64,000 nt of DNA from Diphasiastrum complanatum (Eukaryota > Streptophyta > Lycopodiopsida > Lycopodiales > Lycopodiaceae), in contig CM055104.1 of the NCBI GenBank assembly GCA_029204225.1, forward strand, positions 38,680,527 through 38,744,526, written 5' to 3'. The stretch's first letter is position 1; every line of letters begins with the position of its first letter. A program made the position numbers and the translations under genes. Of the stretch, positions 1-16,613 are shown in pieces. The notes under the pieces are model-generated. The model saw nothing but the letters and a program-made list of their open reading frames with translations. It made no database searches and was not told the origin of the DNA.

Positions 1-2133
1 TTGGTAAAGAAGAAGGCTGAAAGTAAGAAGCGAAAGCGACAAAGTTGCAAGGATATTCAAACGCTTTCAAAAGGAGGTTATCAAAATAGAAGGATCCGTG
101 TATTCAAGTAAGCATATTCTAAATTTTGTAAGTTTTTCAATGACATTTGGATTTAATTTCAGCTATGGTGATATTCTGTTAACCATCTGTTTTTTTTGCA
201 GATATGCATTAGTAGCTCCTCGGAATATTAAAGACAATGCTTCACTAGGAATGTCATTGGGCACAATATTGACTTGCAAATCCGTTGAGTGTATCATGAT
301 GAATAATAGGATTTCAAATGTTAAGTGTAAAATAGCAGAGTCTTTGATGGTGGACATTCAAAATATTTTAGATAAGACTATAGTTCAGGGTGCTTGTGAT
401 TTTGCAGGTATTAGTAGGGAAGCATATGCAACCAAATTTAAACTAATTAGAGAAGCTTTTAAGCAAGTTCAAATTAGAAAAGTCCCAATCCCTAGGACAT
501 ATCACTTGAAGAAAGAGAGGGATACATTAAACATAGGTATGCATAAGATCACTGGAACTCCATTTCATATTGAGGAGGTGTATAAAACTGATGGAAGATC
601 GATATTCTATAATTAATCAAACAATTTATTTGTTGATCTAAATTACTTGCTGAGATACATCGTCACATTCTATGATATAACCTATGAAAAGGTGAATGGC
701 AAAACAATCATAGTACTTAAGTTAGATGAGTCAAAAATTGTGAAAGGGCAGAAGATGGAAAGGGTTAGTATAACTCTCATGAATGGTGCTCTATCCCAAA
801 CAGAGAACCAAGAAGATTTCAAATTCAGTGTCCAGTCAGAAAATGATATATGGTGGTTGGCAGCGTTTCAGGTAACTAGCCTCATTATTACATTACATTC
901 ATTGAATAGTATTAGTACATTGTAAACTAAGTATAATTAATTCTTTGGACAGGTGCTGAAAGAGGATCATGATATATTATCATGGATATTCTCAAGGACA
1001 TCTTATCCTAGGATCATCAAGGACCATATGGATGAAGGATTTCTCAATGTTCTAGGAGTTGGAGACTTCAATGTTGAATGACACTTAGCAAGTGATTTGA
1101 AAACATTGAAATGTATGTATAATGTCTCTCACGGTGCTACATCAAAACACCCTTGTTTGTACTGCATGAAAATGGCAAAAGATGTAACTAGGAGTACAGG
1201 AATTACTAGAGAATATGCAGATCCAAACTGGAAGCCTGTGCTGCCTATCCCCTTAAAAAATGTGCATGTTTGCACTCTTCATGCAAAAGTTAGATTAATA
1301 GAAAAGATCATTTATCTTCATATAGTTTTTGCTTGGAATACTAAGCCAGCATCATTAGCAAAGGAAGCTATCTCTCGATTAGAAGATGTTTTATCAAAAG
1401 CAGGACTCCATAAAGGACATGTCAAAATTCAAAAAGATGAAAAGCTTTCAGGAAAGAATGGGAACATGCCAACTAAGCCAAGCATAGGAGGAGCAAAAGC
1501 ACGTCATTTTCTATCAAATCATACTGGTAAGGCTTCTAATATTCAACACTCAGTCTGGACAGATATTATTGCTACCACTCAAGACTTCGAGAAAGACGGC
1601 AAAACCAGAGTACTAAAAGTTGATGTATGGAAAAAGCTTGATTGTATGATTGCTATTTTAAGAAAAGAAAAATACTCTGATATTGATAAGATAGCTGTCC
1701 AGAGGACTTGTGTCAAGTTTGTTAATGCAATATCAAAAGCATAGGGAGAAGATCACATCACTCATTACGTGGTTAGTATAAAATTTTCAAAATGCTTTCA
1801 AATTTTCATATATATTTAGATCTAAACATAAGACTAACATTATGATTTTGACATATGTAGCACATACTAAGAGATCATACAACATTTTTTGCAAATACAT
1901 ATGGAAGCTTGAGTGTATGGTCATCACAAGGGATGGAGAAGTCACACTGGCAAGCACGAGCAGCATTTCATCGAAATACACAACATGGAGGAACCAATGA
2001 AAAACGAAACTACATTTGTCAATTGTTTCAGTGGTTCTACCGCAGAGTTCAGATTCGACATATAACAAAGTCCACACAATACAACAAGTTTAGAAAACCA
2101 TGCAAGTTCATACAGAAAGAGAAAATTAGATGA
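1..2133 (+). pseudogene. Transposase-like gene of a DNA transposon, decayed (5' end outside window)
   Basis: Four exons fit one frame: 1-107, 202-871, 953-1771 and 1861-2133, with GT-AG introns and matching phases. The basic N-terminus KKKAESKKRKRQ looks like a nuclear-localisation or DNA-binding tail. Exon 2 holds an acidic strand, VLKLDESKI. Exon 3 holds HLASDLKTL, a CLYC zinc pair and the block NVHVCTLHAKVRLIEK. Exon 4 ends with WSSQGMEKSH followed by HTQHGG. An Asp (KLDES), an Asp (SDLK) and a Glu (GMEK) in this order suggest a DDE-type integrase fold; that is inference and I cannot name the superfamily. Three in-frame stops break it: TAA at 614-616, TGA at 1079-1081 and TAG at 1742-1744. 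It converges on the minus-strand gene ending at 2267. Confidence 0.6.
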
Positions 2134-2266
2134 TTGCTGAGTAGAAGATCATCATTGCTGAGTAGAAGATCATCATGACATGTTCAGAATTGCTTTGCAA
2201 ATTCATTGAACAAGAGAGGAGCAATACCCAATGTAAATGTATTGATTGAATTATACAAAGTGTCAA

Positions 2267-3978
2267 CTATTCATCATCAGATCTTGTATCAGATTCTATG
2301 GTAGTATTGTCATGAAGAAATTCTTTGCTAGCGTATGCATCTAATAGATGTGCATTATCCTTATTTCCACTAAGCTCAATATAAGTGGAATACAATGAAT
2401 ACTGGAAGCTCCTTAAAGGAACATTCCCATCAGTAAAGCCTAAAATGTTCAAAACATAAGATCTTTTGACAAAAATGATCTTATTTGTCTTAACAAATTT
2501 ATGTCCTCCTAGATAAAATGATAAAGCTTTAACTTTCATTATAAGACTCTCCCCGACTGGGCTCAGCTTGGAATGAGCAATACAGATCTCACTCTTCAAG
2601 AAATGCCGAAGATAGTGGCCCAGTCCACTGTCCCTCTGGAACAATGATGCATGTTGTCTGAAACCACCTCGTCTCACAGCAAAAGCATCTATTATGAGAG
2701 CATGCTGCAATAGGAAATATGTTAGCAAAAATACATTCAGTGATTGAAAACATTCAAATGTAAGGAGGATTAAACACTTGCACATTCTTCATCATCAACA
2801 GCAACCAGATCAGGATGATCAATATAATGACCACGTATTGAAGTGGAATCATCAGTGAAATGTATTAATGATGGACGAGGGAAGCCCATATGGGATTGAA
2901 ATGCCGTGAATTCCTCATCGGATGGTCTGCCTCGCCCATCCTCAGCTATATTTGATAAAGTCTTCTTCAGGCATTCTTCACCGGTCATAAGACCCTCCTC
3001 ATCATCAAAATCAATACCAGCAACAAGGTCATCTGTCTCAAAATCTACAAAGTCGGAGAATTCGGAAATTGTGCCGGATAATAAACATAGAACCTCGTCC
3101 TCACGATAGTCAAAAAATTTACATAAATCAGCAATAGTAAAATATACATCGTCATTAATATAATATACAAGCAAATTGAAAAGACATTTCGAATCTTTCA
3201 TAGATTTGGATTCATCATCAGATGTATTTTGGCCAATGAAAAAATCTCGGAGAACATCAGTATTTAGATCAATGAAGTCACTTTCTTTATCAGGAGTGTC
3301 GATAAGAAAGTGACTGATATCCTTAATGGCTGAATTAACAGAGGAGGGTGCAAAAGGAGGGTCAGCAACAGGAACTTCATCATCATCTGGGATCTGAACT
3401 AAAAGAAAAAGTACGAAACCACTATGATATTCAACCAATCGACATTTCTTGTTGCAATACGGACACATAGAACTACTTTTGAAAAGATCAAACAATTTGG
3501 TGAACATTCTATCCAATCTATGTCTAAAAGCTGGGAAAAAATGAACAAGATCAGTATAATGCATGTACTGGAGTTGACCTATGGAGAAAACAGGCTTGCT
3601 AAGTATATCTCTGAATCTGACATAATGTTTATAAAATACGTTAGAATTTGGTTGTGCAGTCCTAAAAACATGTAGATATGGCCTGAATAGGCTGTGGAAG
3701 TAGTCCAGATTTTCAGTAATCCCAAATTCACTCAGAAATGAACTCAAGCCTGATTCTCGTGAGGATGATGAGGAAGAGGCATGGCAGTAGCGTGAATATC
3801 GCACTTGTGCGAGCGGGAGAACTGAACCAAAACTAGCTATCAAAATGGCGCAGAAGATGGGTATGTACGGCAGACAGATACAGAATATTGCACTTGTGCG
3901 CGAGTAGGTATACTTGCAAGCAAACAGACAACAATGAGCGCGCACAAAAGCGATATGTCGCGAATTTTGAGAACGCAA
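2267..3978 (-). CDS. Unknown acidic protein with CxxC zinc motif, probable transposon accessory gene
   Basis: A long open frame runs from 3978 to about 2776. It continues after a short intron at 2704-2267 (acceptor TTGCAG before 2704; the donor is either GTTTAA after 2776 or a GC-type GCAAGT after 2782, both phase 0). It would give about 545 residues with no internal stop. The first roughly 70 residues are hydrophobic and compositionally odd, so the true start may be further in. The middle has a CPYCNKKC zinc-type motif. The rest is strongly acidic (DDDEVP, DFDDEEG, AVDDEEC), and the second exon has a mixed alpha/beta look. No family is recognised. It is convergent with the transposase-like gene and divergent from the histone-protease gene, which suggests all three belong to one element. 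It is the best preserved of the three. Confidence 0.55.
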
Positions 3979-4614
3979 AAGGTAAAAAATTATTCGGCTT
4001 CCGTGCCATTTATACTAAATTTTTGCACATGTGGTCAACGGACTTATGACACGTGTCTACTTTCAATTCGACAACAGGCGCAGGCACGTGTGAGATGACA
4101 CCTGCACACGTGTGAAATGACACCTAGACACGTGTCGCACGTTCATTCGATTGCTCATAAACACATGTCGCTCTCGCATTCGATCGTACAAATCCCACAC
4201 GTGTAGTGTGACAGGGTGACACATGTCGCTCTCGCATTTGTCCGTACAACTCCCACACATGTGACAAGACGTTCTTTCGCACGTGCGAACCCCGATATAA
4301 AATCACAAATTTTGATAAATTTTTTTCACTTTTTTTTTCGCTCTGCATATCACATTTGTGCGTGCCCTTCACAATCAAAATTCCTCCTACTACCTTCCAT
4401 GCGCACAAGTCCGATACGTCTGCCTACGTGTCACCCCATATTGCACTTGTGCGTCTTTCCTAAAATCTAATCGTTCTCTCTGATATTCAGCTCGCATAGG
4501 TCCGATATACCGTACATTCTGTCCGTACATAGCGGTCCTCTGCGAGTTCTTTATCATCCCTTCTTTCTCATCCTAACCTTCACGCACAAGTCCGCTATCA
4601 CATAGTTCACGCCC
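3979..4614. promoter_or_regulatory. Intergenic spacer between divergent genes, with CACGTG box cluster
   Basis: Five CACGTG cores lie at 4050, 4085, 4107, 4129 and 4198, with related CACATG cores between and after them. They sit in imperfect repeats of the type GACACSTGT. Motifs like GCACTTGTGCG or GCACAAGTCCG recur at about 3800, 3890, 4405, 4442 and 4585. The spacer divides the minus-strand acidic-protein gene from the plus-strand histone-protease gene, so it may be a bidirectional promoter or an array of sites for a transposon-encoded binding protein. CACGTG is the plant G-box core bound by bHLH and bZIP factors; use here is inference. Confidence 0.45.
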
Positions 4615-6107
4615 ATGGATAGGAGAAAGCAGACAAGGAGAGACTTCTTCTCTCCTGGCTCATCCTCATCTCCTGCGGTTGCCATCACACCACCTGCTAG
4701 ACCTAGAACGCGCAACCGAAACATGTGGCTCTCTGAGATGCGCAAGTATCAGAGGTCAACAGCTCCGTTGATCCCAAGAGCTCCATTCTACCGTGATGTC
4801 CAAAACATAACAAGAAATAATCTTGGACAGCACGTTAAATTCACACCGAGTGCTCTTTAGTGCCTTCAGGAGGCTGCTGAAGATTATATTAGCCTTTTTT
4901 TTTAGGATTCTTTTTGCTTGCCATCCATACCAAGAGGGTTACCATAATGCCCAAGGATTTTCAGCATCTGATGAGAATGAGAGATAGGTATTGTAGGTTA
5001 CATGTATCTCAGCCTGCTGCTCCTAGACCAACTCCTGTAGATAGGACTCATCTTCCTGCGAAGCGTCCTAGGAAGCAGACAGCCCCCAAGCGTGCTCCTT
5101 AGAAAGTGAAGCCTATCCTAGAATCCATTGTAGATAATGATGTTGATGATAATGTTGTAAATATAGCTACCTCTGTTTTGGATACTCCTATAATTGCTGT
5201 AGATACTACACATCCACCTCCTCCTCCTCCTCCCAATTTCTATACATATATAGATTCGGATGATTATCTTAGATTTGAGAAAGACATGTCGGATGCTATA
5301 GATACAATTGGTACTCCTTTTTGTTTTAGACTAGAAGAACTTGATTTTGGTATTAATTTTAGAGTTCTAGATTGCCTGGATCTCAAAGACAGACGAGCTT
5401 CTATCAGTGATCCCGTGATAGAGTCCGGACTAACACTCTTGCAATTTGACATTGCAAGAGATTCAGCAAACGAGTTGCTGGTGCTGAGTAACTTTCTGCT
5501 CCAGGCCTTCAAGGAGAATAATGACACATTGTCACATTGTCTGACAAGTGGATTCACACCAGCAACAAAGTATTTGGTCATTTCTTATCATACCACGTAA
5601 GATATATTAAGTGCTTCTTCTTGTTTTATGCATTAACGTTGACATTTTCAATTTAAATAGTTCTCAGAATTGCCGCTAAAGTACTTTCAATCTTATTTTG
5701 CAGTGACCACTGGAGTTTAAACCTGATCTCTATTAAGAGATCTATAAATAATATTATTAAATGTTCTTGTTTCAAGATGAATTCGGCGAGAAATACGCAT
5801 AAGGATGTAGATATATTCATTCCATACCTAAGTAAATATATTCCTACAAACGTTCCCCATTCCGTGGACTGGCAGATCGTCAGCTTGGAGGTAAACTCTG
5901 TCTTTCTTAATAGCATTTTGAAATCAGTATTCTAATGAAATATTTTCAATCTAATTCATTCTGTTTCATAATTGATTTCTTGTGTGCTGAATTATTTTGC
6001 AGTCACCCCAGCAAAATGATTCATTCAGCTGTGGGTGGTACACATTGTACAATGCCAAGCTGTTTTTTGAGTGGTCCATCCTTCAAAAAGATGTTGATAT
6101 TTCTAAG
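4615..6107 (+). pseudogene. CENH3-like histone H3 fold joined to Ulp1-like (C48) cysteine protease
   Basis: Reading starts at ATG 4615 with a basic tail (MDRRKQTRRDFF). A histone H3 fold follows: RKYQRST, LIPRAPFYRDV, LQEAAEDYI, then IHTKRVTIMPKDF. LIP-APF, LQEAAEDY, KDF and a loop 1 one residue longer than canonical H3 are centromeric-H3 traits. After it come a basic/proline linker (KRPRKQTAPKRAP), an acidic stretch and a PPPPPPP run. The C-terminus is a C48 protease core over exons to 5596, 5704-5890 and 6003-6107: DHWSLNLI gives the His, MNS sits where Asp is usual, and QQNDSFSCGWYTLYNAK gives the oxyanion Gln and nucleophile Cys. Damage: TAG at 4858-4860, a one-base shift in the T-run near 4895-4903, and TAG at 5100-5102; the protease half is open throughout. 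More C-terminal exons may be lost at 6107. Confidence 0.7.
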
Positions 6108-6134
6108 GTAATAAATTCTGTGTGCCTTAAATGT

Positions 6135-6972: not shown

Positions 6973-7311
6973 TCATGCATTGGGAGGAGTAAGTTTCTGG
7001 ATTACATTATCTATCCTATTTTTGACATCACATGGCTTGATCTCTTTAGAAAGTGACTTTGGTAAGCCAATTGCTTTTGCATATTTGACCATAGAAAGCA
7101 TGAATTTGAAATTGGGATGTCCCAATCTCCTATGCCATAACTCCTCCTTAGAAATATTATTCATCAAAGCAACATCACAAGAATTTGCACTTTCATGTGG
7201 ATTCAACTTGAAAATGCCACCATATCTAGATCCATGTGCAAGTATCTCATCACCTTTCTTAATAGCACAAGTATTGATATTGAAAATTACATCAAGGCCA
7301 TTATCAAACAA
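6973..7311 (-). pseudogene. Copia gag-pre-integrase fragment
   Basis: The minus-strand frame starts LFDNGLDVIFNINTCAIKK and holds the diagnostic gag-pre-integrase block ELWHRRLGHPNFKFMLSMV of Ty1/copia polyproteins, which sits just upstream of the integrase core. It breaks off after KPCDVKN. Nothing of protease, integrase core or RT remains next to it. Its upstream side is cut by the LTR of another copia at about 7318, so it is an older element split by a younger one. Confidence 0.75.
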
Positions 7312-7317
7312 ATTTTT

Positions 7318-8449
<1,132 letters not shown>

Positions 8450-8649: not shown

Positions 8650-9780
8650 GTTCGTGGGTTTAGAGATGAGCTATGCAGCTCTAATTGTCGCACTGGAGTA
8701 TTGTTGGACCAATCTGTGGGCAGATCCTGTAGCAACCTTCTGAGCCAAACTATCTCCTTCATTGCTGATGTAGCTGCAACCTATTCAGATTCTGTAGAGG
8801 AGAGTGAAATTCATTTCTGCTTTATGATGTTTCCTCCTGTAAGGAAACAAATGTAACTTGATGTGGATTTTCTGATGTCCATGTCTCCTGCCCAATCTGA
8901 ATCTGAATAAGTGATTAGCGAAAGTGCACTTTCTATATTGCCATTATAGCTTAAAGCATAGTAGATCATAGAATACATTAAAGATCCTATGACAAACTGA
9001 TAAGGAAATCTACACATTTCTTGTTGATCTGCTTGAGTTCTGGGACACATGTCTTTAGACAGCTTGGATCCTGGATCCATGGGTGTGGCTATCGGTTTGC
9101 AGTCCTCCATGCTATATCTGTGAAGTACATTGGTTAGATAGGACTCTTGGCTTATAATAATCCTTCTGCTTGCGCGATCTATGTTGATCTCCATACCAAG
9201 TAGGTAATGAACTGGGTCTAAATCAGTCATCTCAAATTTTGATGAAAGCAAATATTTGGTTTCATGTAGCAACTGATTCAAATTGTTGATAATTAATGAA
9301 TCATCAACATATAATGCTATTATAACATAGCTTGACTCTTTACGTTTGAGATATACATTTGAGTCCGCGGAACAAGGAGTAAAATAGTGCTGCAACAAGA
9401 ACATTGATTCTTTCATACCAGGTCCTAGGAGCTTGATATAGTGCCTTATGTAATTTACATACCAAATGCTCTTGGCCTTGAAGGACGTAACCTTCTTGTT
9501 GATAAATGAATATTTCTTCTTGTATGTATATCTGAAGTAATGTTGTTTGTGTTGGAATTCGATGCTCAGCCTCAAATCCATTCATTAATGAGCATCCTGA
9601 AAGCTATACAAAACCCAGAAAAAGAAGGCTAGATTTTTTTAGCAGAAGATCGAAAAATTCAAGATCGAATTTTTTAGAATTTTTCGATACCAAATCGACT
9701 CAAAAAATTCTATATTTTTTGAGTCAATGTATATTTTTCGAGTCATTGTACATTTTTTTTCGATACTTGTAAATCATGTT
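8650..9780 (-). pseudogene. Copia reverse transcriptase / RNase H region, degraded
   Basis: The minus strand carries Ty1/copia RT and connection motifs in order: LHKALYQAPRTWYERI, then YVIIALYVDDSLI (RT catalytic YVDD), YLLGMEI, SQESYLTNVLHRYSMEDCK, then SDSDWAGDMDIRKSTSSY for RNase H. Two frames are needed, so at least one frameshift is present near 9340-9400. Above 9585 lies a spacer rich in GAATTTTTCGA and GACTCAAAAAA motifs that matches the spacer of the neighbouring plus-strand copia. Together with the LTR at 7318-8449 this is the 3' half of one element; its gag and integrase are missing. Confidence 0.8.
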
Positions 9781-10173
9781 TGATACTGTCGGTCTAAAAT
9801 CCGACCCAACGACTTTGCGTCAATAGTTCGCCTACTTTGTACATTCAAAGACGGTTGTCATAAATGAGGCACATAGCATTTAATGATAATTAGATATTTA
9901 ACAAGAAGAAGATATTTTGTAGTAGACCTATAACTGTGGATAGGAAGTTAATTAAGGACTAATCGTCATCATAATTTTTGGTTTTCTATAGCTAGCGTTA
10001 TCACGCTCAACAAACTGAAGTTATTGCTTCAAGTAATTGTACTAATTGTTGATATTAACCAGAGTACAATTTCAATCCTACTACTATATCGTTCATTTAC
10101 GCATTTGGATGAATCATTCATCTTGATTATTCTACTGCTAACTATGGCGCTTCCGATCCTACGATTTCTGACA
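9781..10173 (+). mobile_element. 5' LTR of plus-strand copia element with primer-binding site
   Basis: The segment ends in TTTCTGACA and is followed directly by TGGTATCAGAGCC, the usual copia primer-binding site complementary to initiator tRNA-Met. A second TGGTATCAGAG lies at about 10257. The left boundary (TGATACTG or TGTCGG near 9781-9787) is uncertain. The segment abuts the minus-strand copia, so the two elements stand back to back. Confidence 0.55.
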
Positions 10174-12880
10174 TGGTATCAGAGCCTCTGTTGTAATCAG
10201 ACCTCCTCTAATCCGATATCAGTAAATCATCTTTGATAAACCATCAATTTTTGACATGGTATCAGAGTGGGTAGTTCAGTAATCTGCATTTCATTGCGGA
10301 TTATCAAGTCTTGTGTCTATCAAGACGGTGTTCTAGCAAGCGCACAACCAACAGTATTCTGAAATCGTTGTTTCTACCTACGATATCACTCAACTAGAAT
10401 GGATTCATCATCTAGTTCTTCTCTTATCGACAAACTCGATGGGAGTAACTACCATTTTTGGAAATTCAAAATGGAGGTCATACTACTAGCCAAAGAACTG
10501 TGGGACATCGTTGATGGCACAGAACGCAAACTTGAAGGTGATGCACCCATTATCACCAAATGAAAACCAAAAGATGACAAGGCTTTTGCCACGATCACTC
10601 TCAATAATAGGGACACACAATTCAGCCACATACATGCTGTTCAGACTGCTAAAAATGCATGGGACATCCTAGCAACTCTCTACGATATCAGGGATACCAC
10701 GTCCAAATTACATTTGAGGAAGAAATTCTTCTCCCTGAGAATGTTTGAAGCAGAAAGTGTTTCAAGTCATCTCAACAATTTTCAAAATCTTATGGAGTAG
10801 ATGACTGCAACTGGCTCAGTCGTAAAAGATATTGATGTTGTTATGACTCTATTATTGAGTCTTCCTGATTCCTATGAAAATTGGGTCCTAGCAATGTCGA
10901 CCCAGGAGCACCTCACTCTTTCAAGAGTAATTTCGATGCTTCAACAAGAGGAAGTCAGAAGATCTGTAATCTGCTCAAGCTCAGGGTCGGATACTCAAGC
11001 TATGTATTCGAAAAGAAATCAGAAGTTTAGATCAAACAGATCTACACAATCAAAATATCCTGACAAAAGCAGTCTAGGTCGAATTTTCACTCAGGGTCAA
11101 ATTTTGGCTCAGGGTCGAATTCTGGTCCAGGATCGAATTCAGATTCTTTATCATTCCAATCAAAGCAAAACCTACTCTGCAAATACTTTAAGAGAACTAG
11201 CCATCTTATCAGGTTTTGTAGAATTTTAAAATTCAACAATGAGAAGAAAATGCAGTTCCAACAACAAGCAAACTCTACTTCAGCCAGTTTTTCGATCCAA
11301 TAACAAGATGAAGATGAAGCAACCTTCTTAACCAAGGTCGGAGAACATCAGGATATCGATTTTTGGTACCTAGACTTGGGAGCAACTCAGCATATGACTC
11401 ACCACAAGGACTGGTTCAAAGATTACAAAGCATACACCCACTCTCAAATTGTGCAGCTTGGAGACAACTTAACTCATTCTATTGAGGGTGAAGGAATAGT
11501 CAGGATCGAATTTCAGAGAGGCGAAGTCAAGTTGTTGACCAACGTTCTCCACATTCCAAATCTGACCAAAAATCTGCTCTCAGTTAGCAGAATCACAGAT
11601 TTGGGTCGGAGGGTAGAATTTGACACAAACGGCTGCACCATTTTTGACAAGTCCCAAAAGGCTCTAGCTTTCGGGAGGAGTGGCAACCTTTACAAATTCA
11701 GCCACTACAATTCTTCTAATTGTCAAACTCTTTATACATCCACTTCTGAATCAGTTGATATGCTTTGGAATTTTATATTAGGCCACCTCAATTCCAATTG
11801 TATTCAACAAGTGTCAAAATAGAATTTAGTACAAGATCTGCCCACAATTAGCAAATTCAATACTCCATGTAAAAGCTGTATAATCAGCAAGCATGCTAGA
11901 AGTCCTTCCATTTTCGATACAGTCCATACTTCTAGAAATTTGCTAGATCTTGTATACATGGACATTTGTCGCCCTATGCAGACCATTTCCACAAGGGGAG
12001 CTGTCTATTTACTGACTTTTTCTGATGACTTCTCTCGAAAGACTGCAACTTATTTTTTGAAGGAAAAATCTGATATCTTCAAGTTTTTCAAGTAGTTCAA
12101 AACATCAGTAGAAAATTTGACCCAAAGAAGAATCAAAGCTCTATGTTCTGATGGAGGGGGAGTATTTATCTCCAGTGAGTTCAAAGCTTTCTACAAGGCC
12201 AACAGAATACACCTACAACAATCCACAACCAACTACTTACCTCAGTCCAATGGTGGAGCTCAAAGGAAGATTCAAACACTCATTGCAAGTGCAAAGAGCA
12301 TGATGGCCCATGCATCTCTTCCAAAGAAATTCTAGGCAGAAGTTGTTACTACAGCAGTCTATCTACAAAACCGATCCATTACAATGGCCGTGAATGGTCA
12401 GGTGTGGACATGATCAAAGCCATCACTCAAAAATATTAGAGTGTTTGGATGCAAAGCTTTCAATCAGATCTCTGTTGATCTATAGAAAAATCTAACCCAA
12501 GTATCGAACAGTCAAAACCCGATTCAGTGATCGAACAATGGTAGATCAATTATTATTAGCTACTCTCCAAATCACAAGGCATACAAGCTCTACAACCTAG
12601 ACACTCAGAAAGCATTCACAAACAGAGATGTCATCTTTTTGGAAGACCAATTTTTCGACCACAAAGAGAAAGCTACAGCAAATTTCGACCCAAGTATCGA
12701 ATAGCAAAATTCCGATTCAAGGGTCGAACAGTCAAAAATCGATACTAGCTCAAAAATTGAGTCAAAATCTCAACGGATCAAATCACATCAGAGGATCAAA
12801 TTTCAACTCAGAAGATCAAATCGATCCAGACAGCCTCCATCTAGATCTATGGATGATCTAGCCTGCTATTTGTGCAGGAA
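10174..12880 (+). pseudogene. Copia gag, protease and integrase region, truncated and full of stops
   Basis: Gag starts at about 10399 (MDSSSSSSLIDKLDGSNYHF, WKFKMEVILL) and runs in frame past TGA at 10561 and TAG at 10798. A later frame begins with a protease-like segment (GATQHMTHHKDWF), then the LTNVLHIPNLTKNLLSV block. The gag-pre-integrase is weak (LWNFILGHLN). The integrase core follows (VYMDICRPM, FSDDFSRKTATYF, ALCSDGGGVF, NGGAQRKIQ). Further TAG stops sit at about 11821, 12094 and 12334. From about 12640 the sequence turns into a TCGA-rich spacer like the one in the minus-strand copia, then is lost at about 12880 with no RT or 3' LTR. Confidence 0.8.
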
Positions 12881-14507
12881 TAAAGCTATCTTTATGCAAA
12901 TGGAATTTTCAAATCAAAGATCATCATCAAGCATGGAGGAAGCATATTAAAATAGTGGCAAATTGGTGGAATACTCTTCAAAGGTGTTGGCAAGAGATTT
13001 CTACCAAAGAGATCTTATCATGGATATGGTGAGGATGCTGCTATGATGTATTCTTTGGCTGATCTTCACTTCATATGCATACCAAAGAATCCACTAAAAA
13101 AAGTTCCTTCACCAAGCATAGGTCCAACCTTGGATTAATTCCAAGATCAATGTTCAAGTCAAATAGATAACTTTTTAGGAGTGTTGAAAATAAAAAAGCC
13201 ATCTATCTTGACTTTTGGGGTTGATAAAGTTTTTCAACATGCATGTACTTTTCCAAAGTGAAAAATCCAAATTTGGCCTAGTAGAAACTCAAGCCAATCC
13301 ACATGCATAATGTTAAGTTTGCCAAATGTGACATGCAAAGAAAACTTAGACTTGTATTGGCACATGCATGACCATTTGTCGTTTGTATTCTAGAAAATGA
13401 CACATGTAGAAAGTGGGTAGGTGTAGTTGCATATCTCTACATGCAAAGTGATAGGTGTCATATTTTAGGTAGATACTAATCTTAGAAGTGGAAAAATATC
13501 ATTGGAGGCTTGTGCTACCACGAGCTAGTACCATTTCCTATATATGTATGTGGGATCTTCACAAATTTTGATGATGAATCAAGCTTTGAAGCTATTCTCT
13601 AGTAATTTGGATTTTCTACTTGTACGCTTGAATTGCCATTCTCTCTCTAACATGAGGAGGAGGTTTTTCTCATACTTTAATTTGCTTTGTACTTTTTCCA
13701 CATGTGTGAAAGTAATCATTGTTTGATGATTAGCATGCTAGATTGTGATTTAGCCATAGAAACTCTTCAATTAATCTATGTGCTAACACAAAGCTTAGGA
13801 AGATCATTTACACATTTATTGTACATATCCCACACGTGTGAACTTGCTGGAATTTTGTCATTTTTTGCTCCAAAAATACTTGGGTTCAACGCTTGAGCTC
13901 CGTAGTGTCTATGCAATTGACGATAGTGCGTAAAACTCTAACTTTGGCATTGATAATTTTTCATTTGCTTTAAATCTTGTGAATGACTGTATGTTTTTAT
14001 TTTCATGTAGACTCCACAAAATACTCAATCACACTTAATTCGAGTGAAACTATGTGGCAATGGCATCGAAACCTCATCTAGATTGACCCTAAAGATTGAC
14101 AATGCAAAATCATGAGTTTTTGATGATATAAGCTATATATGAGCAATCCTTGGCATGTCTCACTAGGTTTGGTGCCCCAACCACCTTCATTTGAATGCCA
14201 ATAACTTTTTCAAGGCAAGTCCTTTTTGCTTGAAATCAATTGCATCACAAACTAGCTTTCCAACAAGTAATCATACACTAGATTTGGATCTATCTTGGAG
14301 AAACACCAACCATCCAAACTTGGGTGAGCGCTGTTGTCCATACAATGCCAAACATGGATCAGTTCAATATGCTTTTCACCCTTCTTGATCCAAAAATCAC
14401 TTAGATTGCTATCGAGATCCAACTACACTCCCAAACCCGAGTTTTTCAAGCTAATATTTCATCAAACTTGATGCACGCCATCCATCCTTAGGCAAGCTCT
14501 GATACCA
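12881..14507. other. Spacer of LTR-like debris, no gene supported
   Basis: A short frame at 12980-13140 (HGYGEDAAMMYSLADLHF) is not recognised. About 13857-13945 resembles the reverse complement of about 14590-14672, including TTTTGCTCCA, CTTGGGTTCAA and AGTGCGTAAAACTC; these look like two LTRs of one family in opposite orientation. No intact coding sequence was seen. Confidence 0.4.
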
Positions 14508-15341: not shown

Positions 15342-15740
15342 TCTGACTCTCGGTTTTCATCATGCAAAACCACCCACAACCAAAATACAACACAAAAGCT
15401 GCTTTTTTCTCTCATCGCCCGCCTCACAGATCATAAAGCTCAGTACACACACCCACAGCAACGATCGAGAAGAGTTTGCTTTGCTTCAGAATTTTGCTTC
15501 CATTGCTCAGCCTTCCACCCATCTTATATCTATCTAGATATTTGTTTGTGTGGCTAGCTAGATCTGTTGAGGAGATTGAGGATCGTATTCACACTGCTAT
15601 CAGCCGGCGTTTTGAAGGAGAAGAAGCGAAAGATTAAGCTAGTGACCGCAGTAGCGGGGATCGTTTGGGAAAGCCTGCCATCACAGAATTATTAACAACT
15701 TTGCCATCTCATTTCACGGCTAGCTGCAGCTTCAAAGCCT

Positions 15741-16613
15741 TTGGAAATAATGATGTCTATCATCAAAGAGGGGCCGGAATGGCTCACACCTTTCCTTTCT
15801 GCGCAATACTTCAGTCATTGCGCATCTCACGCACAAGGAAGACGAGAAAATACTCGATTTTGCATAGATTGTCAACAAGGTCCTCTTTGTGCCACAGCCA
15901 TAGAGTCGAAGCATGTTGCTCACAATACATTGCAGATCAGAAAAGCTTCAAGGATGAATGTTGTGAAGCTAAACGAGGTAAAGAAGTATATTGATGTGTC
16001 AAATATACAGGTCTATACTATCAATGGAGCCACAATCATCTTTCTGCACGCTAGGCCACACTTGCAGCTTGCAAGGGCATGTTCTTCCTACTGTGAAGTA
16101 TGTGGTAGGAATATTGTTGATCCGGTTAGATTTTGCTCCATCGGATGTAAGGTAGAGTGTGCTAAGCAAAACAAAGACGACACATGCCTCTCTCTTTCGG
16201 AATTATATGCAGCAACACCCGACCTTGTACATGGAAAGGGAGGGCATAGATCATCTGCTAAAAATGAATGTCATAAGCCACCCACGCTCGGTGTTTCTGA
16301 ACAAATTAGCTCAAATGATCCGATTGGAAAGCCAATGAAGGAGAAACTGAAGGCTGAGCAATGGAGTATGCAACATCTAGAACTCCGCTTGCAAAAGTCT
16401 AGATCTCAAAACATATCACATGGAAGCGCTCGAGGTAGGGAAAACATGGATCATCAAAACACTCCCCTTCCTCCTGGACCATGCTCGACGTCGCAGGCTT
16501 CTGTACAAGACTTGGATGGAAGTATATTGCACACACTCTCTGAAATGGGTAACATTAGAAGTCCAAGAGTGCATAGAAGAAAGGGAATTCCTCATCGATC
16601 GCCTATGTTTTGA
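15741..16613 (+). CDS. PLATZ-family zinc-dependent DNA-binding protein, single exon
   Basis: The frame is open for 290 residues. PLATZ proteins are plant-specific nuclear factors that bind A/T-rich DNA and usually repress transcription. The domain covers about residues 11-140: PEWLTPFLSAQYF, CASH, CIDC, LCATA, KHVAHNTLQIRK, VKKYIDVSNIQVYTI, FLHARP, and the second zinc module CEVCGRNIVDPVRFCSIGC. One expected zinc ligand is gone: LCATA has Ala where the family has a second Cys (C-x2-C). The region after about residue 145 is low-complexity and polar. The start could be Met1, Met4 or Met5; Met5 lies nearest the domain. No intron interrupts the domain, although the PLATZ genes I know have several, so a retrocopy is possible. 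It has no stops, which argues for recent function. Confidence 0.85.
   Translation: MEIMMSIIKEGPEWLTPFLSAQYFSHCASHAQGRRENTRFCIDCQQGPLCATAIESKHVAHNTLQIRKASRMNVVKLNEVKKYIDVSNIQVYTINGATIIFLHARPHLQLARACSSYCEVCGRNIVDPVRFCSIGCKVECAKQNKDDTCLSLSELYAATPDLVHGKGGHRSSAKNECHKPPTLGVSEQISSNDPIGKPMKEKLKAEQWSMQHLELRLQKSRSQNISHGSARGRENMDHQNTPLPPGPCSTSQASVQDLDGSILHTLSEMGNIRSPRVHRRKGIPHRSPMF

Follow-up and report, generated by a model that had tools for sequence, protein, structure and literature searches.

Transposons of the KDZ (Kyakuja-Dileera-Zisupton) type are a case of a Ulp1 domain in a DNA transposon. Another case are the KIUs of VANDAL MULE transposons, which are VANC genes carrying Ulp1, and VANC proteins bind short motifs that are dense in the non-coding parts of their own elements, as far as the available parts of the sources describe it (PMC5735166, PMC13317346). 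Capture of histone H3 by transposable elements (TEs) has a precedent in H3 fragments of fungal hAT elements (PMC6710886), and RAG-like transposons and Transib follow the rule that their terminal inverted repeats (TIRs) start with CAC (PMC7204232, PMC4411706), again according to the accessible portions of these reports. Here, we describe a locus in a stretch of 64,000 nucleotides from the genome of Diphasiastrum complanatum (C13:38680527-38744526, below called the window) that is almost certainly a decayed copy of an abundant plant DNA transposon. It comprises a transposase of the RAG1/Transib fold, a second gene (ORF2, from open reading frame) and a divergent gene in which an H3 is fused to a Ulp1-like domain (H3-Ulp). 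The best overall explanation, and quite a probable one, is a decayed transposon copy with H3-Ulp as its putative chromatin effector.

The region 4615-6107 of the window reads as one gene in which an H3 tail and H3 fold, a basic and proline-rich linker and a three-exon C48 (Ulp1) domain follow each other, in the order that the first-pass annotation had proposed. In a read-through product, where X was placed at the breaks before the Pfam search, residues 23-123 match Histone (9.8e-23, above the cut-off) and residues 317-418 match Peptidase_C48 (3.3e-7, 30.8 bits, cut-off 20.7). Taken alone, the N-terminal histone piece passes its cut-off of 26.4 (30.2 bits, 5.9e-7), the C-terminal histone piece lies just under it (22.2 bits) and the last protease exon just under that of Peptidase_C48 (19 bits against 20.7). 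The histone half aligns with solved H3 (residues 17-123), loop 1 in the window's family exceeds that of H3 by one residue, a lengthening that had also been claimed before, and the gene starts at 4615 with MDRRKQTRR, identical in 6/9 positions to the host H3 start MARTKQTAR. Both introns (5597-5704 and 5891-6002) are of the GT-AG type, preserve the frame and put DHW and QQNDSFSCGW in frame. The histone half is interrupted by TAG at 4858-4860 and, by the T run 4895-4903 with a frameshift, by TAG at 4903-4905. The earlier statement that this copy is broken by two stops and one frameshift thus stands, with a third in-frame TAG (5100-5102) to be added inside the linker; its other suggestion, that the halves could be separate proteins, is at odds with the single frame found in other copies. 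Even here the frame that spans the C-terminal half of H3, the linker and the remainder of exon 1 holds one stop in 226 codons, the other two frames 21 and 22, and 0 of 20,000 Markov-1 sequences had as few.

All genome searches covered the window's own genome (1.74 Gb), and copy numbers are lower bounds. A query with exon 1 (328 aa) gave 9,976 candidates, of which the best 122 were scored and counted by eye: each of the 122 is a single match that starts in the H3 part, crosses the linker and comes within 17 residues of the exon 1 end, which immediately precedes the catalytic His, and 24 of them are stop-free, with the limit that the best-scoring matches favour full length and give no measure of the fused share among all copies. 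Frameshifted copies such as that of the window are left out of these 122, and some rows of equal score are possibly duplicates of one copy. An in-frame stop occurs in the other 98 rows, and in 95 of these (by eye) at least one is TAG, as C-to-T decay of CAG would give.

A search with the Pfam Histone model (153 matches, 150 of 6,325 first-look candidates scored) returned 13 matches at about 164 bits, six of which were extracted and are canonical H3, and most of the remaining ones are diverged H3 folds with 95-110 bits. The 32 distinct non-host H3 places fetched fall into family A (10, the window's family), family B (20) and one each of families C and D. In family A the histone half is 78-91% identical to that of the window and all ten places show protease matches; the catalytic-His exon is found in 8/10 and the Cys exon in 6/10, those without one or the other including short or truncated loci. 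Five fetched copies (L037, L038, L043, L044, L045) have a fully open exon 1, and L038 and L045 are open through both catalytic exons. The first-pass annotation had suggested a search for intact copies encoding both domains; in the window's family these are linked, and the opposite outcome, in which intact relatives would always keep the two apart, was not observed. A chance neighbourhood of a host H3 or CENH3 pseudogene and an unrelated Ulp element would suit the broken histone half of the window, but it is opposed by the single frame in the best 122 matches, by the catalytic exons that follow in most fetched loci, by gene order, spacing and ends that are conserved, and by the fold itself, which is only about 50% identical to plant H3, so not a recent copy, and groups with other TE folds. 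The probability of this explanation is practically nil, and the open fused copies rule it out. The join of H3 to Ulp1 is real and not a chance neighbourhood.

H3-Ulp is the third gene of an element that is complete in one copy (L052-L038, C7:71809545-71818225) with 8,681 bp and perfect 35-bp inverted repeats starting CATTAGAGGAGTTCTCAATATC. The first 32 bases of this repeat, with at most 3 mismatches, were found 1,177 and 1,240 times on the two strands (2,417 in total), and the reversed control gave 0. Five of the six long family A loci (L038, L039, L043, L044, L045) share the gene order transposase on the plus, ORF2 on the minus and H3-Ulp on the plus strand; the sixth, L037, shows no homology left of window position 4154. 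These repeats and the common order bear out the assumption of the first-pass annotation that the locus is a transposon. The left end of the window copy is predicted about 355 bp outside the window and its right part is lost beyond 6121, where homology to the other copies stops, while L038, L039, L045 and (gapped) L044 run about 2.2 kb further to a common end. The 5' repeat was not found in L039 with L051. Table 1 lists the features.

Table 1. Features of the transposon copy in the window
Feature	Position	Strand	Basis and remarks
Transposon part within window	1..6121	+	alignments to L038, L039, L045; element ends
Transposase exon	203..871	+	splice phases, family matches; first triad Asp in LDES; one in-frame stop here
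Transposase exon	953..1771	+	second catalytic Asp, CX2C; two in-frame stops here
Transposase last exon	1861..2130	+	HX4H, catalytic Glu
ORF2	2267..3780	-	two exons, tail-to-tail with transposase; no Pfam match; start codon unsettled
Shared divergent upstream region	3797..4597	.	9 copies of TATYGSACTTGTGCG, both orientations
H3-Ulp exon 1	4615..5596	+	H3-type tail, H3 fold (about 4720-4992), basic/Pro linker, region preceding catalytic His; broken here
H3-Ulp exon 2	5705..5890	+	DHW; catalytic His
H3-Ulp exon 3	6003..6107	+	QQNDSFSCGW; catalytic Cys

The transposase matches RAG1, amphioxus RAG-like and Transib proteins by fold and shows a DDE motif with CX2C and HX4H at RAG1-like spacing. In its read-through these residues are D175, D271, C291, H497 and E522, with counterparts D404, D501, C521, H755 and E779 in P0004; in P0005 the last four are present, the pattern for the first Asp having matched an earlier LDE, and in the other 33 of the 36 rows examined the final Glu pattern was not seen. 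No Pfam model, including those of KDZ, MULE and CACTA, matches the window transposase above cut-off, and the same is true for 9 of 10 relatives scanned. The suggestion of a MULE, CACTA or KDZ-type element is thus replaced by the RAG1/Transib fold. With KDZ the element shares Ulp1, but no KDZ match is among the Pfam results of its transposase family. The tenth relative, P0038, an Adiantum nelumboides gene model, joins a DUF7794 protein to a transposase piece, the DUF7794 match lying outside the transposase part, and represents either a model fusion or an exonised element.

With RAG-like elements and Transib, as presented in the available parts of PMC7204232 and PMC4411706, the element has in common the transposase fold, the DDE motif with CX2C and HX4H and a second gene placed tail-to-tail with the transposase; it differs from them by its ORF2 without Pfam match, its TIR start, the additional histone-Ulp gene and the plant host. 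Pieces of ORF2 are 63-93% identical in L038, L039, L043, L044 and L045. It matches 0 Pfam families at E <= 10, and by these models no RAG2-like partner with kelch and PHD domains was found in it. Between ORF2 and H3-Ulp, which diverge, lies a region rich in TATYGSACTTGTGCG: with at most 3 mismatches 9 of the 12 copies in the window lie there, and shuffles of the whole window contain 3.0 on average and 8 at maximum. With at most 2 mismatches 4-8 copies occur at the corresponding place in L038, L039, L043, L044 and L045, one copy in one of seven family B loci scanned and none in L050 (family C). A transposon gene with Ulp1 and a short motif clustered in the non-coding part are features shared with KIU/VANC of VANDAL, as far as these are described in the sections at hand of PMC13317346 and PMC5735166. 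In contrast, our element has the RAG1 fold instead of a MULE transposase, its motif occurs in both orientations and not in one as in VANDAL21, and these sections mention no histone in VANC. The likeness of the upstream motif to VANC targets is suggestive only.

H3 folds are also found beyond the window's family. In the 20 family B places (among them L015, L017, L020, L022 and L025, whose repeated entries L031-L035 were counted once) the fold is about 45-52% identical to that of the window. The long frame of L015 shows, after few residues, the canonical H3 start MARTKQTARDPR, then stretches rich in Gln and Pro, and an H3 fold at its C-terminus. Matches to the window's transposase family occur in 8 of the 13 long B loci and a short ORF2-like piece (31-35% identity) in 10; a related end sequence is present in L047. 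Family C is represented by L050 with a diverged H3 gene starting MARTESTARA and an A-like linker, and family D by L018 with a further H3-like fold and no protease match within the 3.3 kb fetched. Since the folds of family B stand near the same transposase type, in this transposon group the H3 component may predate the window's family. The region 4094-8172 of L050 appears to be a nested or composite locus that holds, after the C gene, pieces of the transposase, then another H3-like piece at 7084-7392 and protease matches at 7622-8172; as these matches follow the second H3-like piece, they cannot be assigned to the C gene itself. H3 folds with long N-terminal tails are present in P0001, P0002 and P0003, proteins from ENA contigs.

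The first-pass annotation had seen CENH3 traits in the histone half and proposed that the transposon captured a host CENH3 whose fold steers insertion into centromeric chromatin. With plant CENH3 the window fold indeed shares LIP-APF, QEAAEDY, DS and a slightly longer loop 1; unlike it, the fold is fused to Ulp1, borne by a transposon and placed in its own clade. At the columns diagnostic for canonical H3 versus two plant CENH3s, the window is CENH3-like in 10, H3-like in 4 and neither in 9, host H3 reading 0, 23 and 0. The corresponding values are 9-11, 4-5 and 7-10 for A copies, 6-7, 5-6 and 10-12 for B, 6, 4 and 13 for C and 6, 2 and 15 for D. The TE folds have therefore clearly left canonical H3 and share some residues with plant CENH3. 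But this test is weak, as the known CENH3s do no better when each is omitted in turn: Arabidopsis CENH3 gives 8 CENH3-like to 7 H3-like columns and maize CENH3 8 to 13. Human CENP-A gives 6 to 10 and Cse4 4 to 12. A tree of 21 folds was reconstructed with four of the five intact A copies, four of 20 B folds and two of the six extracted host H3s; P0001, P0003 and the row of plant H3 were not included. One branch sets the TE folds together with the two plant CENH3s (93/87, not starred), and another sets the TE folds apart from both host H3 and CENH3 (97/90). Due to the weak test and this separate clade, descent from CENH3 does not follow; the fold appears to lean weakly to plant CENH3.

Clustering of TIRs can be considered as a further argument for centromeric targeting. 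On C1, the only chromosome analysed in this respect, 83 exact matches reach 15 per 2 Mb and 26 per 5 Mb, and 2,000 uniform draws reach at most 11 and 15. However, these clusters may partly reflect local or segmental duplication, and a single element contributes to the counts with both of its ends. Capture of CENH3 with steering by its fold is rather unlikely, and centromere steering by the element as such decidedly unlikely. The C1 clusters lie at 64.97-66.68 Mb (15 exact matches) and 95.0-100.6 Mb (27).

In the few pairs tested, purifying selection has preserved the fold of the histone half. When L043 is compared with each of the other four intact A copies, dN/dS (the ratio of nonsynonymous to synonymous substitution rates) is 0.11, 0.11, 0.13 and 0.17 for the H3 fold at dS 0.47-0.58, and 0.44-0.56 for the linker; these pairs all share L043 and are not independent. 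In its protease part dS is low (0.06-0.076), so L043 looks like a mosaic. For the 20 B folds the mean pN/pS (the analogous ratio of proportions) is 0.43 and the twelve most diverged pairs, which draw on a small set of loci, give 0.13-0.33. These values bear on the idea that the H3-like gene is a functionless captured passenger of the kind reported for the H3 fragments of fungal hAT elements. Like here, a DNA transposon has there amplified an H3 sequence to high copy number, and stops in 98 of the best 122 copies would agree with a passenger. But the fungal sequence is captured host coding sequence, mostly truncated and inactivated by repeat-induced point mutation, and the available part of PMC6710886 describes no protease fusion, whereas our element carries a diverged fold that its subfamilies conserve and that is joined to Ulp1. 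Together with the low ratios, the H3 folds of family B and L050 near the same transposase type and the 24 copies with open exon 1 among the best 122 render a mere passenger very unlikely.

In an alignment to yeast Ulp1, the catalytic His and Cys of the window match, and in family A His is kept in 9/9 exon 2 reads and Cys in 5/7 exon 3 reads, window included. That the H3-Ulp product is a chromatin-anchored SUMO effector of the element is a function that we infer tentatively, with slightly less than an even chance. The histone half would pair with host H4 and enter or dock on nucleosomes, either at the element or at its targets; SUMO on nearby silencing or kinetochore-chromatin proteins would be removed or bound by the Ulp1-like half. 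This change could keep the chromatin of the element open and accessible, as proposed for VANC/KIU of VANDAL transposons in the portions at hand of the sources cited above, and may in addition bias insertion.

Several observations weigh against such an effector and against the placement of the element. Where yeast Ulp1 has its catalytic Asp the window has Lys, so that the triad His-Asp-Cys is not complete, and in the copies this stretch reads IKCSC, IKGFC or IKDFC. Tyr replaces Cys in L028 and L037, and stops follow His in L028 and L039 and occur in exon 2 of L037 and exon 3 of L023. With Lys, Tyr and these stops protease activity is doubtful; it must be regarded as uncertain, and a role in SUMO binding appears as likely. 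Protease matches were found in 0/20 family B places within the stretches fetched, and the orientation in B differs from that in A, with transposase and ORF2-like piece on one strand and H3 on the other in L034, L035, L036, L046 and L048. The dN/dS values among the four close A copies, whose dS is low, scatter between 0.29 and 1.52, a spread that dead copies would be expected to show. The TIR begins with CATTAG and not with the CAC of RAG1/Transib, and the one copy with both ends (L052-L038) shows no target site duplication, which would be 5 bp in a RAG1/Transib element. To these points the favouring of full length among the 122 matches has to be added, and H4 pairing, SUMO and silencing are steps that we infer throughout. 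The missing Asp and a conserved fold with a loose linker would suit a decoy whose histone half sequesters H4 or histone chaperones and thereby weakens host silencing, the Ulp1-like half only binding SUMO; against it stand the retained His and Cys, and we consider it improbable.

Few host proteins are guarded as closely as histones. A transposon of high copy number with a diverged, conserved H3 variant fused to a domain of the SUMO pathway offers a direct way to ask whether mobile DNA writes its own chromatin, and bears on whether centromere-type histones were drawn into, or come from, that conflict. It is nearly an even question whether plant RAG1-type transposons have long encoded their own H3 variants, one type of them fused to a Ulp1-like domain, which would be built into host chromatin and control silencing or target choice as selfish histones. 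The plant RAG1-fold transposase also bears on age and spread of the RAG lineage, which the accessible parts of PMC7204232 and PMC4411706 treat in animals.

On C15 three H3 matches of equal score lie about 107 and 110 kb apart (29099217, 29206333 and 29315846), and equal scores and regular spacing look like segmental duplication. Further to the right in the window, we take pieces on both strands at 8811-12900 to be Copia-like retrotransposon remains and a frame at 15696-16613 to resemble a PLATZ-type zinc-binding protein, in both cases from the translations.
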